A DNA stretch of 58,418 nucleotides from an uncultured Eubacteriales bacterium (lineage in GTDB: Bacteria; Bacillota; Clostridia; Christensenellales; Aristaeellaceae), in contig CACWZI010000023.1 of NCBI GenBank assembly GCA_902765305.1, positions 1 through 58,418 of the forward strand, written 5' to 3'. Below the pieces are notes generated by a model. It was not told where the DNA came from. It did no database searches and saw only the letters and a list, made by a program, of their open reading frames with translations. Position numbers and translations under genes: made by a program. Shown here one piece after another: positions 588 to 6,402 of this stretch; position 1 is the stretch's first letter; the number at the start of each line of letters is the position of its first letter.

Positions 588-686
588 GACAGATATGGTT
601 AATAAGAAAGCGTGCAGGTATACACCTCGGAGCCGTCAAATCGGCTCGGGTCCGGGCACCGCTTAAATACGGAAAGGTTGTTTTCG

Positions 687-1598
687 ATGCTCAAGTATAC
701 AGTCAAGCGCGTGCTGCTGGCCGTGGTCACCGTGTTTATCATTTCGGCGATCACGTTCTTCGCGATGAACGCCATCCCCGGCGGGCCCTTCGCCAAGGAA
801 AAGGCGCCCGACCCTGCGGTGCAGGCCGCGCTGGAGGCCCGCTTCAACCTGGACAAGCCGGTGCACCAGCAGTTCTTTATCTATCTGAGGAACCTGCTGC
901 ACGGCGACTTCGGCGTATCGCTGAAGACGGGGCGGGACATTTCCCAGATCATTTCAGAAAAGTTCGCCGTCTCGGCGAAGCTGGGCGGCATGGCTGCCCT
1001 GTGGGCGGTGGTGCTGGGGCTGATCCTGGGCTCTGTCGCCGCGCTGTGCCGCAACCGCTGGCCGGACCGGCTGATCATCTTCCTGACCACGCTGTTCGTG
1101 TCGGTGCCCAGCTTCATACTGGCCACGATCCTGCTGCTGGTGTTCGCGCTGACGCTGAAGTGGGTGGGCGTGTTCGACGCCAACAACCCCAACTACGTGC
1201 TGCCGGTGATTTCGCTGATGCTGTACCCGATGAGCTACATCACCCGCCTGACCAAGTCCTCTATGCTGGACGTGCTGGGACAGGATTACATCCGTACCGC
1301 CCGGGCCAAGGGCGTGCGGGATTCGCTGGTCATCTTCAAGCACGCGCTGCGCAACGCGCTGATCCCGGTGATCACCTATGTGGGCCCGATGGTGGCTTAC
1401 ATCCTCACCGGCTCCATGGTGGTGGAAACGGTGTTTACCATCGGCGGGTTGGGCACCGAGTTCGTGCGGAGCATCAACAACCAGGATTATCCGCTGATCA
1501 TGGCGACCACGATCTTCCTGGCGGTGCTGATGGTCATCGCCACGCTGCTCAGCGACCTGGTGTACAAGCTGGTCGACCCGAGGATCACCTTTGACTGA
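687..1598 (+). CDS. oppB: Oligopeptide ABC transporter permease OppB
   Basis: A 303-residue membrane protein, the usual OppB/DppB length. Residues 1-30 form the first transmembrane helix (MLKYTVKRVLLAVVTVFIIS). The typical GDFGVS motif lies in the extracytoplasmic part before the permease core, and the EAA cytoplasmic loop reads DYIRTARAKG. It forms half of the membrane channel for peptide uptake, with OppC. The ATG at 687 is chosen because GGAAAGG lies nine bases before it and the family N-terminus begins there; an in-frame ATG at 612 would add 25 residues unlike the family. First gene of an oppB-C-D-F-A operon. Confidence 0.93.
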   Translation: MLKYTVKRVLLAVVTVFIISAITFFAMNAIPGGPFAKEKAPDPAVQAALEARFNLDKPVHQQFFIYLRNLLHGDFGVSLKTGRDISQIISEKFAVSAKLGGMAALWAVVLGLILGSVAALCRNRWPDRLIIFLTTLFVSVPSFILATILLLVFALTLKWVGVFDANNPNYVLPVISLMLYPMSYITRLTKSSMLDVLGQDYIRTARAKGVRDSLVIFKHALRNALIPVITYVGPMVAYILTGSMVVETVFTIGGLGTEFVRSINNQDYPLIMATTIFLAVLMVIATLLSDLVYKLVDPRITFD

Positions 1599-1610
1599 GG
1601 AGGGATGAAT

Positions 1611-2687
1611 ATGACGTATAACGCGGACAAGCTGCCCAAGAAAAACCTCCTCAGCCTGCAAATCGACGTAAGCAAGTTTGAAAAGGCTTCCGATGCTGAG
1701 AAGGCCCAGCACGAAACCATGCGGGAGTCCACCACATTTTTCCGCGACGGTATGCGCAAGCTGCGCAGGAACCCGCTGGCGATGATCAGCCTGGTCGTGC
1801 TGATCTGCCTGGTGCTGACCATCGTGATCGTGCCCATGTTCTATCCCTACAGCTATGAGCAGATGATCACCGTCAACGGCAAGCGGGACAAGACGGCCAA
1901 GAACCTGGCGCCCTTCACCTATTCCAAGAACGAGCAAAAGGCCATCGACGAGGGGCAGAAGATCTTCCCGCACATCTTCGGCACCGACGAGCTCTGTCGG
2001 GATTACTTCATCCGCGTGCTCTACGGGGCGCGGGTCTCTCTGGCGGTGGGCCTGTTCGCCAGCCTGATCGTGCTGGTCATCGGGCTGCTGTACGGCTCGA
2101 TATCCGGCTACTTCGGCGGGAAGGTGGACATGGTGATGATGCGCATCGTCGACATCATCTATTCGCTGCCCGATACGCTGATGGTGGTGCTGCTGTCCGT
2201 GGTGATGAACCAGGTGCTGGGAAACGCGCTGAAGGGCAGCATCGTCAGTAAGATCGGGCCGAACATGATCTCGCTGTTCGTGGTATTCGGCGTGCTGTAC
2301 TGGGTGGGCATGGCCCGCCTGGTGCGCGGCCAGATCCTTTCCATTAAAAACAATGAATACGTGCTGGCCGCCCGCGCCATGGGCGCGAAGCCGGGCCGCA
2401 TCATCCGCAAGCACATCCTGCCCAACTGCATGTCCGTCATCATCATCTCGGTGGCGCTGCAGATTCCCTCGGCCATATTTACCGAGAGTTTTCTGTCGTT
2501 TATCGGCTTGGGCGTGCAGGCGCCGATGCCCTCGCTGGGTTCGCTGGCCAACGCGGCCCGCGGCGGCATGCAGAGCTATCCCTACAAGATGGTGTTCCCC
2601 GCGGTCATCATCTGCCTGATCGTGCTGAGCTTCAACCTGCTGGGCGACGGCCTGCGCGACGCCTTCGACCCGAAGCTGAGGAGGTAA
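1611..2687 (+). CDS. oppC: Oligopeptide ABC transporter permease OppC
   Basis: A 358-residue permease, partner of OppB. The cytoplasmic N-terminus of about 60 residues is followed by a first helix (MISLVVLICLVLTIVIVP), a long extracytoplasmic loop, and the BPD_transp_1 core with GTDELCRDYF and the EAA loop YVLAARAMGA. Of two nearby ATGs (1605 and 1611) the second has proper spacing from GAGGAGGG; the first touches the ribosome binding site. The stop codon overlaps the region of the oppD start, so the two are probably translationally coupled. Confidence 0.92.
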   Translation: MTYNADKLPKKNLLSLQIDVSKFEKASDAEKAQHETMRESTTFFRDGMRKLRRNPLAMISLVVLICLVLTIVIVPMFYPYSYEQMITVNGKRDKTAKNLAPFTYSKNEQKAIDEGQKIFPHIFGTDELCRDYFIRVLYGARVSLAVGLFASLIVLVIGLLYGSISGYFGGKVDMVMMRIVDIIYSLPDTLMVVLLSVVMNQVLGNALKGSIVSKIGPNMISLFVVFGVLYWVGMARLVRGQILSIKNNEYVLAARAMGAKPGRIIRKHILPNCMSVIIISVALQIPSAIFTESFLSFIGLGVQAPMPSLGSLANAARGGMQSYPYKMVFPAVIICLIVLSFNLLGDGLRDAFDPKLRR

Positions 2688-2692
2688 TGAGG

Positions 2693-3702
<1,010 letters not shown>

Positions 3703-3706
<4 letters not shown>

Positions 3707-4668
3707 GCGAATACCTCCTTGAGGTCAAGGACCTGAAGCAATATTTTCCCGTTCGCACCGGCTGGTTTTCCAGCAAGCCCCTGAAGGCCGTGGACGGCGT
3801 TTCCTTTGAAATCAAACCCGGCGAGACGCTGGGGCTGGTGGGGGAGAGCGGGTGCGGCAAGACCACCGTGGGCCGCACGATCCTGCATCTGTATAAGCCC
3901 ACCTCCGGCGAAATCATCTACAACGGCCAGCAGATCACGCCCCAGAACATCCATAATTTCCGGCGGGAAATGCAGATCGTGTTCCAGGACCCGTATTCTT
4001 CGCTGAACCCCCGCATGACGGTCTCCGACATCGTGGGCGAGCCGCTGGACATCCACAGGCTGTACGGCACCAAGGGCGAGCGGACGGCACGCATCAACGA
4101 GCTGCTGAGGCTGGTGGGCCTGAATTCCGACCATGCCCGCCGCTATGCCCATGAGTTCTCCGGCGGCCAGCGCCAGCGCATCGGCATCGCCCGCGCCCTG
4201 GCCGTGGATCCCAAGTTCATCGTCTGCGACGAGCCGGTCAGCGCGTTGGACGTGTCCATACAGGCCCAGGTGATCAACACCTTCGAGGATCTGCAGCAGA
4301 AGCTGGGCATCGCCTACCTGTTCATCGCCCACGACCTGCTGGTGGTGAAGCACATCAGCCAGCGCATCGCGGTGATGTACCTGGGCCGCATCGTGGAGAT
4401 CGCCAACGCTGACGAGGTCATCACCCATCCGATGCATCCCTATACCCAGTCGCTGATCTCGGCCATACCGATCCCCGATCCCAACACGGCCCGCACCCGC
4501 AAGCGCATTCCCCTGGAGGGCGACGTGCCCAGCCCGCTGAACATGCCCTCGGGTTGCGCGTTCCGCACTCGCTGCCGCTACGCCACCGAGCGCTGCGCGC
4601 AGGAGTGCCCGGGCCTTTCGGAAATCGGCCCCGGCCACAAGATCGCCTGCTGGAACCCCCACGAATAG
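3703..4668 (+). CDS. oppF: Oligopeptide ABC transporter ATPase OppF
   Basis: A 321-residue second ATPase of the Opp importer, with Walker A GESGCGKTT, signature FSGGQRQRI, Walker B FIVCDEPVSALD and switch IAHDLLV. The C-terminal Cys-rich segment (GCAFRTRCRYATERC) is typical. It overlaps oppD by an ATGA, so coupled translation and equal stoichiometry are likely. Confidence 0.93.
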
Positions 4669-4706: not shown

Positions 4707-4737
4707 CAGATAATAATCTTTTAGGAGGAACCCACTT

Positions 4738-6402
4738 ATGAAGAAGCTGCTCGCAGCACTGCTGGCCATGATGATGCTCTTCTCCTGCGTCGCCGCCATG
4801 GCGGACGCGGGCTCTGAGCCCGACTGGACCGAGTACAACACGCTGATCGCGGAAGTCAAGGCCGAGACCGACTTCGTCGAGCGCGAAGCCAAGATGCACC
4901 AGGCCGAGGACATCCTGATGGCCACCGGCGCGATCCTGCCCATCTATTACTACAACGATCTGTATATGCAGAAGCCCGGTGTGGATGGCATCTATTCCAA
5001 CCTGTTCGGCTTCAAGTTCTTCCAGTACGCCACTGTGGAGGGCTCCGATACCCTGCGCCTGAACCTGGCCTCCGAGCCGGATCATCTGGATCCTGCCCTG
5101 AACAGCTCCGTGGACGGTGCCTGCCTGGCCATCGCATCCTTCGGCGGCCTGTACACCTATGACGCCGAGGGCAACCTCAAGCCCGATTTCGCTACCGGCT
5201 ACGAGATGAGCGAGGACGGCCTGACCTACACCTTCACCATGCGTGACGGCCTGAAGTGGTCCGACGGCAGCGACCTGACCGCCAAGGACTTCGAGTACAG
5301 CTGGAAGCGCGCCGCCGATCCCCAGACCGCCGCTGACTACAGCTACATGTTCAACGGCATCAAGGGCTATCCGGACAACCTGGCAGTGACCGCCTCCGAG
5401 GACGGCAAGACCCTGACCGTGGAGCTGGACGCGCCCTGCGCCTACATGCTGGACCTCATGGCCTTCCCCGCCTTCTATGCCGTGAACCAGGCATGCGTCG
5501 AGTCCGTCGAGGGCTGGCAGGAGAATCCCGGCGCCTGGGCCAACGAGGCCGGCTTCGTGACCTCCGGTCCCTTCACGCTGACCGAGTGGACCCACAACAA
5601 TTCCATGACCTACACCAAGAACCCCAACTACTACGACGCCGAGAACGTGAAGCTGGAGAAGCTGCAGTTCATGCTGTCCGCTGACGACACCGCCATCTAT
5701 GCCGCTTACCAGGCCGGCGACGTGGACTTCATCGATTCCGTTCCCACCGACGAGATCCAGAACCTGAAGGATTCCGAGGAATTCCACATCATCGACAACC
5801 TGGGCACCTACTATGTGTGCTTCAACGTAAAGTCCCCCCTGTTCGACGGCAAGACCGTGGAGCAGGCGGCTGCGATGCGCCTGGCCTTCTCCAAGCTGGT
5901 CGACCGCGACTACATCATCGAGACCGTGGGCCAGTGCGAGCAGAAGCCGGCCAACGCCTTCATCCCCGAGGGCATGGCTGACGGCAACGGCGGCGTGTTC
6001 AAGGCCAATGACGACGCCTATACCTATCCCGACGCCGAGAACGTGGGCTACTACGATTACGAGGTGGACGTGGAGGGCGCCATCGAGCTGCTGAAGCAGG
6101 CCGGCTTTGAGTTCGACGACAACGGCATGCTGTCCGCCAGCACCCCCATCTCCTTCGAGTATCTGACCAACGAGTCCTCCGGTCACGTGGCCATCGCCGA
6201 GTGCATCCAGCAGGACCTGGCGGCCGTGGGCATCACCATGACCATCCGCACCTGCGACTGGAACGTGTTCCTGGACGACCGCAAGGCCGGCAACTACGAC
6301 ATCGCCCGCAACGGCTGGATCGCCGACTTCAACGATCCCATCAACATGCTGGAGATGTGGACCACCGATTCCGGCAACAACGATTGCCAGTTCGGCCGCT
6401 GA
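4738..6402 (+). CDS. oppA: OppA-type peptide-binding protein with circularly permuted order
   Basis: A 554-residue exported SBP_bac_5 protein, the expected peptide receptor of this Opp operon. Residues 1-22 are a signal peptide; LFSC ending at Cys17 could be a lipobox, making it a lipoprotein. The order of the mature protein is abnormal. Residues 26-102 (YNTLIAEVKAET, MHQAEDILM, LPIYYYND, FGFKFFQYA) match what is normally the C-terminal end of this family. From residue 103 comes the normal mature N-terminus (LRLNLASEPDHLDPALN), running on to DFNDPINMLEMW and NNDCQFGR, where the protein stops exactly where the displaced segment would normally begin. Little seems missing or duplicated. Either a true circular permutation or an assembly artefact around tandem copies. 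Good ribosome binding site (TTAGGAGG) and a downstream terminator. Confidence 0.85.
   Translation: MKKLLAALLAMMMLFSCVAAMADAGSEPDWTEYNTLIAEVKAETDFVEREAKMHQAEDILMATGAILPIYYYNDLYMQKPGVDGIYSNLFGFKFFQYATVEGSDTLRLNLASEPDHLDPALNSSVDGACLAIASFGGLYTYDAEGNLKPDFATGYEMSEDGLTYTFTMRDGLKWSDGSDLTAKDFEYSWKRAADPQTAADYSYMFNGIKGYPDNLAVTASEDGKTLTVELDAPCAYMLDLMAFPAFYAVNQACVESVEGWQENPGAWANEAGFVTSGPFTLTEWTHNNSMTYTKNPNYYDAENVKLEKLQFMLSADDTAIYAAYQAGDVDFIDSVPTDEIQNLKDSEEFHIIDNLGTYYVCFNVKSPLFDGKTVEQAAAMRLAFSKLVDRDYIIETVGQCEQKPANAFIPEGMADGNGGVFKANDDAYTYPDAENVGYYDYEVDVEGAIELLKQAGFEFDDNGMLSASTPISFEYLTNESSGHVAIAECIQQDLAAVGITMTIRTCDWNVFLDDRKAGNYDIARNGWIADFNDPINMLEMWTTDSGNNDCQFGR

Follow-up and report, generated by a model that had tools for sequence, protein, structure and literature searches.

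Genes at the locus

The window, the whole stretch of 58,418 nucleotides that was analysed, encodes the OppBCDF importer between 612 bp and 4668 bp, upstream of an oppA gene whose product has its C-terminal segment at the front of the chain (Table 1). An oppF gene on the same strand was located upstream of the match in 77 of 80 relatives, at a distance of 23 bp–1261 bp (median 248 bp); in the remaining three relatives, for which no upstream oppF was found, the match begins close to a stored contig edge. At one locus, L187 (G845), the permuted oppA stands before oppB, oppC and oppD and not after oppF, which represents a changed operon gene order.

The interval between oppA and secD contains a promoter-like site on the forward strand (6525 bp–6553 bp; TTGACG-17-TATAAT, 11/12), so secD may begin a separate transcript. 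The secF gene (7891 bp–9579 bp) was found to carry a long low-complexity insert that is acidic, rich in Ala and Glu and contains repeats (TEAPAEETAEAEA), and matches to secF were split into two pieces in relatives L038, L044 and L051. An ORF of 1053 amino acids that runs antisense over secD–secF (6481 bp–9642 bp, reverse strand) is probably a by-product of the high G+C content and the secF repeats.

Table 1. Features of the oppBCDF–oppA region; positions are those of the window.
Feature	Position (bp)	Strand	Basis or remark
oppB, permease (BPD_transp_1)	612–1598	+	Pfam PF00528 and PF19300; first of four adjacent opp genes
oppC, permease (BPD_transp_1, OppC_N)	1605–2687	+	Pfam PF00528 and PF12911
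oppD, ATPase	2687–3706	+	Pfam PF00005 and oligo_HPY
oppF, ATPase	3703–4668	+	Pfam PF00005 and oligo_HPY
AGGAGG, likely ribosome-binding site	4723–4728	+	Direct reading; ends 9 nt before the ATG
Circularly permuted oppA, 554 aa	4738–6402	+	ATG-start ORF; PDB alignments; AlphaFold2 model
Signal peptide, residues ~1–24	4738–4809	+	Sequence and model; AMA/DA-type cleavage site judged by eye
Displaced C-terminal segment (tail), residues 31–100	4828–5037	+	Alignments to OppA/DppE and to normal-order kin
Spacer from old C-terminus to old N-terminus, residues 101–104	5038–5049	+	Alignments
Body, residues 105–554, from the normal mature N-terminus to the lobe-2 loop; SBP_bac_5	5050–6399	+	PF00496; PDB alignments
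Asp530, equivalent of OppA Asp419	6325–6327	+	Alignment to 1b05, chain numbering taken as mature numbering
GNNDCQFGR-stop, new C-terminus and breakpoint	6373–6402	+	Direct reading; stop position in relatives

Anatomy of the permuted OppA

Judged from its sequence, the oppA ORF is an OppA with a clean circular permutation. The original prediction, made from the DNA alone, had placed the C-terminal segment of the SBP_bac_5 family behind the signal peptide, and alignment confirmed this; residues 31–96 aligned to positions 455–520 of Bacillus subtilis OppA (8are) and 451–516 of DppE (8ay0), which are the chain ends. Residues 101–550 aligned to positions 17–450 of 8are and residues 98–548 to positions 16–444 of 8ay0. 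The mature N-terminus thus follows the displaced segment and the chain ends at NNDCQFGR, where that segment would normally continue, both as proposed, and the predicted junction codons at about 4813 bp and 5044 bp were correct. The swapped two-block alignment to the PDB chains and the co-linear relatives described below agree that the permutation is clean.

Against solved chains, the match of the tail was firm for DppE (8ay0, i-E 5.1e-7) and weak for the other four chains among the matches listed (i-E 0.063 for 8are, then 1.8, 1.8 and 3). Against normal-order kin, the tail showed up to 67% identity (E 1.5e-32). Structural alignment gave 29–33% identity between the window protein and B. subtilis OppA or DppE. 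The Pfam profile PF00496 (SBP_bac_5) matched residues 147–548 (E 3e-83; 280 bits against a cut-off of 32.4) over profile positions 2–367 of 368, and residues 1–102 had no significant Pfam match. The match to the NCBIfam OppA model reached position 466 of 543 in the window protein and 524 of 543 in the normal-order protein of L174. The canonical SBP_bac_5 order, with the C-terminal segment at the chain end, is not that of the window protein, and none of the 60 listed solved chains (of 105 that matched the family profile) had its best stretch in the permuted order. As profile searches see the body only, they leave about 100 N-terminal residues of a permuted OppA unassigned. The signal region of the window protein has both an AMA/DA cleavage site and a cysteine, Cys17, in a poor lipobox (LFSC).

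Predicted fold, ligand site and selection

An AlphaFold2 model based on 54 sequences had a pLDDT of 89.9 and a pTM of 0.87, with ten-residue pLDDT means of 92–96 over tail residues 31–100. In this model the displaced part forms two helices and one long strand; the signal region has a helix at residues 2–16 and low pLDDT at residues 14–23. The top Foldseek matches were OppA structures (best TMt 0.73–0.74), in a sequential alignment in which body and tail could not be aligned together. The model predicts a single confident fold for the chain, but Foldseek, which aligns in sequence order, cannot place the tail with the body or show it in its usual packing position.

Asp530 aligned to D419 of OppA (1b05), which in the Salmonella protein we take to be the aspartate that binds the peptide α-amine. 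This residue was invariant in all 54 aligned permuted proteins, across which the mean column identity was 60%; with the aspartate aligned and invariant, the protein would be expected to capture peptides in the usual way and pass them on to OppBCDF. The dN/dS ratio (NG86) against five relatives was 0.11–0.35 overall and 0.14–0.42 for the tail alone, and both body and tail are under purifying selection.

These sequence and model data indicate that the product is very probably a working oligopeptide-binding protein of the importer encoded upstream, with a circularly permuted chain. That it has instead decayed to a remnant or taken on another role, such as that of a sensor, is very unlikely. Some copies do decay, as the broken first copy at L038 shows, but the frame is open in nearly all relatives, the exception being L205, where the match contains two in-frame stops; the selection on both parts, the upstream oppF in most relatives and the invariant ligand-site aspartate also speak against a remnant.

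Distribution of the permuted order

Within the window's genus, a window-type copy was found in 18 of 28 genomes, its own included. Fifteen of these 18 gave a single co-linear match from residue 41 or earlier to residue 554 and the others matched in pieces. Among the best 80 of 335 relatives, 79 were permuted and the 80th (L051) was cut by a contig edge. An ORF search of 113 loci revealed long co-linear matches in 97, which include L028, a normal-order locus with only a 32% match from residue 60. At the level of the window's family, 73 of 250 genomes matched at E 1e-90 or better, of which 47 were judged to be of the permuted type (counting fragments) and 26 of the normal type; 20 of these 26 were examined further and each showed the normal order. 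In an even phylum sample of 398 genomes, no carrier besides the window's own genome was found at E 1e-120, so the permuted family is patchy.

Judged by record title, the hosts of permuted OppA were Clostridia, namely rumen and gut MAGs, Lachnospiraceae, Oscillospiraceae and Christensenellaceae, together with Chloroflexota MAGs at four loci (L063, L068, L069 and L075). Two of the records carry no MAG or uncultured label: Lachnospiraceae COE1 (L108) and Proteiniclasticum aestuarii SCR006 (L112). Order was analysed for 138 of 139 loci, L205 being dropped; L051 was given no order because of the contig edge.

The breakpoint was almost fixed. Counted from the G of the GNN motif, the stop lies at exactly 9 residues in 91 of 99 permuted loci, one residue later in six and later still in two; the 99 loci represent 96 distinct sequences, 89 of which stop at the position equivalent to GNNDCQFGR. 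The spacer between the old termini, defined by a regular expression, was 8–11 residues long in 93 of the 99 and unmatched in six. A strict lipobox was found in 37 of 80 permuted proteins, a cysteine only in 24 and no signal-region cysteine in 19, although these lipobox and signal-peptide counts are rough, as starts were picked by a simple score and four ORFs without a start were left out.

The junctions of the window protein were thus recovered in related genomes, which bears on whether they arose in assembly. As the main alternative, the original prediction had named misassembly or a tandem oppA pair that had been collapsed or rearranged in this one metagenome assembly. The window does come from a draft assembly of 177 contigs, and tandem oppA copies are real in relatives L038 and L044; however, the order is shared by 79 of the 80 relatives in many independent assemblies, from Clostridia of several families and Chloroflexota MAGs to the two records without a MAG label, and the identical stop position recurs in 91 of the 99 permuted loci. 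An artefact can be ruled out for practical purposes. Nor are the close relatives normal in order with the window copy as a unique breakpoint, the outcome that would have pointed to one; the permuted proteins form a large family with more than one change of order.

Normal and permuted orders in the same operon slot

The Lachnospiraceae loci that gave body-only matches, at 54–66%, encode normal-order proteins. Seven of them (L174–L180) sit behind the oppF of an oppBCDF set, and their identity to the window protein is 54–65% for the body and 49–67% for the tail. The oppA of this slot in Lachnospiraceae occurs in either order, and the two orders are intermingled in the OppA trees and, independently, in the OppBCDF trees.

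A first tree had all 80 permuted rows on one side (SH-aLRT 100) and was read as a single origin of the permuted order. Its normal rows numbered just 29 and came exclusively from the genus and family of the window, and the reading was overturned by wider Lachnospiraceae sampling. Quick trees then showed five order changes for the OppA body (135 rows) and three for OppBCDF (49 rows).

Two sets of the same 51 loci (33 permuted and 18 normal) were compiled, thinned by identity and with all four opp genes required; L149, L151, L152, L154, L181 and L198 were removed manually because they were distant or odd. Of L174–L212, seven loci (L179, L181, L182, L186, L188, L198 and L207) were missing at least one complete opp gene, and these were added in a 58-row OppA tree. 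For the 51-locus OppBCDF tree, none of 200 bootstraps was a one-change tree, and the minimum number of changes in 1000 bootstraps was four (397), five (602) or six (1). The OppA body and tail tree of the same loci gave three (66), four (829) or five (105) changes, and the denser OppA tree of 58 loci gave five in 936 and six in 64 of 1000 bootstraps. AU tests rejected a single permuted clade in both the OppA and the OppBCDF sets (p 5e-6 and 8e-54 respectively) and, in the OppA set, also a grouping of the ten nested normal rows into one clade.

Two groupings were found at 100/100 in both the OppA and the OppBCDF trees: the normal-order L174 and L175 joined six permuted rows, and the permuted L202 joined five normal rows. 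The tail of L202 was 69–81% identical to those of three normal-order sisters versus 53–56% to two other permuted rows. Five normal/permuted sister pairs showed 64–70% identity in the body and 61–81% in the tail, the statement that they are sister groups depending on the normal rows sampled. L153 and L184 are long branches, and L187, L188 and L202 are loci from single genomes.

A single permutation could still underlie these trees if oppA had been replaced from normal-order lineages, or if gene conversion or hidden paralogues had mixed the rows. Recombination in binding-protein genes is plausible, and the first, poorly sampled tree did have one permuted clade. Against this, the OppA and OppBCDF trees concur on L174/L175 and on L202, tail and body travel together (the L202 tail being closer to its normal-order sisters than to the two permuted rows), no genome had both orders above the cut when three to five candidates were scored per genome, and the AU tests rejected the clades named above. 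We consider a single permutation unlikely.

When gains of the permuted order were minimised, the best trees required one gain and 5–7 reversions. With gains only, the counts were five (51-row OppA), nine (OppBCDF) and eight (58-row OppA), against unordered minima of four, five and five respectively. Parsimony, on trees that have open forks, suggests order changes in both directions. A history of forward permutations only, repeated independently at one favoured loop, is a possible reading that we hold to be the less probable one: the 51-row OppA tree costs it a single extra change, and the short linker of the nested normal-order proteins could be the ancestral state before cutting, but the other two trees penalise it more heavily, and independent events would each have had to cut at nearly the same residue.

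Linker, double copies and origin

In the nested normal-order proteins, a body–tail linker of about 5–10 residues (e.g. GKDPSNTAAPDW) occupies precisely the site of the cut; several distant normal-order proteins have one of 1–7 residues. The claim that nothing had been lost from the window protein fits these values, as the body–tail gap is only 6–10 residues in ten close normal-order kin and 1–7 in several distant ones. A loop of 22–30 residues was found at the cut point in the normal-order OppA of L115–L134, relatives from the window's family (19 of 20 by alignment gaps), and in L183 and L185 from Lachnospiraceae; the other normal-order kin measured, except L153, have 1–10 residues there. From the alignments, the long loop looks like an insertion particular to one normal-order set. 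It had also been considered as an ancestral state lost in the permuted form, but a recount of the short linkers in other normal-order kin speaks against this. As short linkers occur in nested and distant normal-order proteins alike, the linker is uninformative on the direction of change.

Double permuted copies were present in four of the 138 loci, in two of which they are fused in one frame. Tandem copies occupy the oppF–secD interval of L044 (6157 bp–9683 bp) and L038 (6551 bp–8797 bp); they are ~60% and 84–90% identical to the window's copy, and the first copy of L038 is the broken one. The fused pairs, L068 (5607 bp–9593 bp) and L069 (5673 bp–9593 bp), are Chloroflexota MAG lipoproteins of ~1300 amino acids that contain two complete permuted OppA units joined by an acidic linker of 85–90 residues. 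No partial intermediates (tail–body–tail or body–tail–body) were found among the 138 loci. At L057 there is no more than a remote body-like match (28%), which lies 2.6 kb downstream.

As a tail–body–tail–body chain includes the normal as well as the permuted order, trimming could yield one or the other, in line with permutation by duplication, known from saposin/swaposin and DNA methyltransferases according to the accessible part of PMC3320104. The fused tandem double copies resemble the intermediates which that model predicts. Tandem duplication followed by trimming is the most likely route to the permuted form. Taking the trees and the double copies together, we lean towards the view that the order of the OppA chain is prone to change in evolution among the sampled Lachnospiraceae and their allies, with at least five moves between normal and permuted, in both directions, at the same loop and by way of fused tandem copies.

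Discussion

The window protein shares with OppA and DppE (SBP_bac_5, cluster C) its fold elements, the oppBCDF–oppA operon and the ligand-site aspartate. Unlike in those proteins, the last ~70 residues stand first and the termini would lie in lobe 2 instead of lobe 1. The two termini of oligopeptide-binding proteins lie near each other within domain I of lobe 1, as stated in the accessible part of PMC10924461 and as the original prediction had assumed. From the same source, lobe 2 of YejA ends ~40 residues before the C-terminus; as the cut in the permuted proteins is ~70–75 residues before the old C-terminus, we infer that the new termini lie in lobe 2.

The permutation would have linked the former chain ends, which are adjacent in lobe 1, through a short run of residues and opened new termini in a lobe-2 loop just after GNNDxQFG(R/K). 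It most likely began with a tandem duplication that was then trimmed, tandem and fused double copies being known in the same operon slot, and orthologous Lachnospiraceae genes appear later to have changed order several times. Peptide would presumably be captured as in OppA and delivered to OppBC, and the membrane anchor, where a lipobox exists, would pull on lobe 2 instead of lobe 1. Given the poor lipobox of the window protein and the permuted proteins that have no signal-region cysteine, the anchor argument is not valid for all members.

The original prediction knew of no described binding protein of this kind. A permuted ABC binding protein of another class is in fact known: TpMglB-2 (Tp0684), a glucose-binding lipoprotein designated 'Type Ic / Cluster Bc' that occurs in treponemes and many Gram-positive bacteria (PMC4990184). 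In the accessible text of that report TpMglB-2 is probably tethered, and its authors suggest a link between permutation and tethering. Both cases are natural circular permutations of an ABC binding protein, but TpMglB-2 is a cluster B sugar-binding protein in which the cut moved N-terminal strands to the end, and the same text reports no mixture of normal and permuted forms among its orthologues. The profile and fold matches of the window protein are to OppA and DppE of cluster C, and not to the cluster B (type I) fold.

The normal-order OppA of Lachnospiraceae (L174–L180 and L194–L197) belongs to the same operon and differs in that its tail follows a GNNDxQ(F/L)GK-like motif and a short linker. 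Unlike in the saposin and methyltransferase cases, as far as these are covered in the accessible part of PMC3320104, the order here varies among the orthologues of one operon, with a near-fixed breakpoint and perhaps in both directions. No description of a permuted OppA was found in the literature searched, whose coverage leaves out most subscription journals and which was in part accessible in excerpt. The repeated change of order among orthologues is the part not met in earlier descriptions, an absence from the literature being weak evidence.

Circular permutations are usually regarded as rare, old, one-off events. With both orders present among close orthologues, the cost, benefit and mechanism of a permutation become testable in natural pairs. 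After TpMglB-2, the permuted OppA would be a second class of ABC binding protein with a circular permutation, and one in which the tether of the binding protein may shift to the other lobe.
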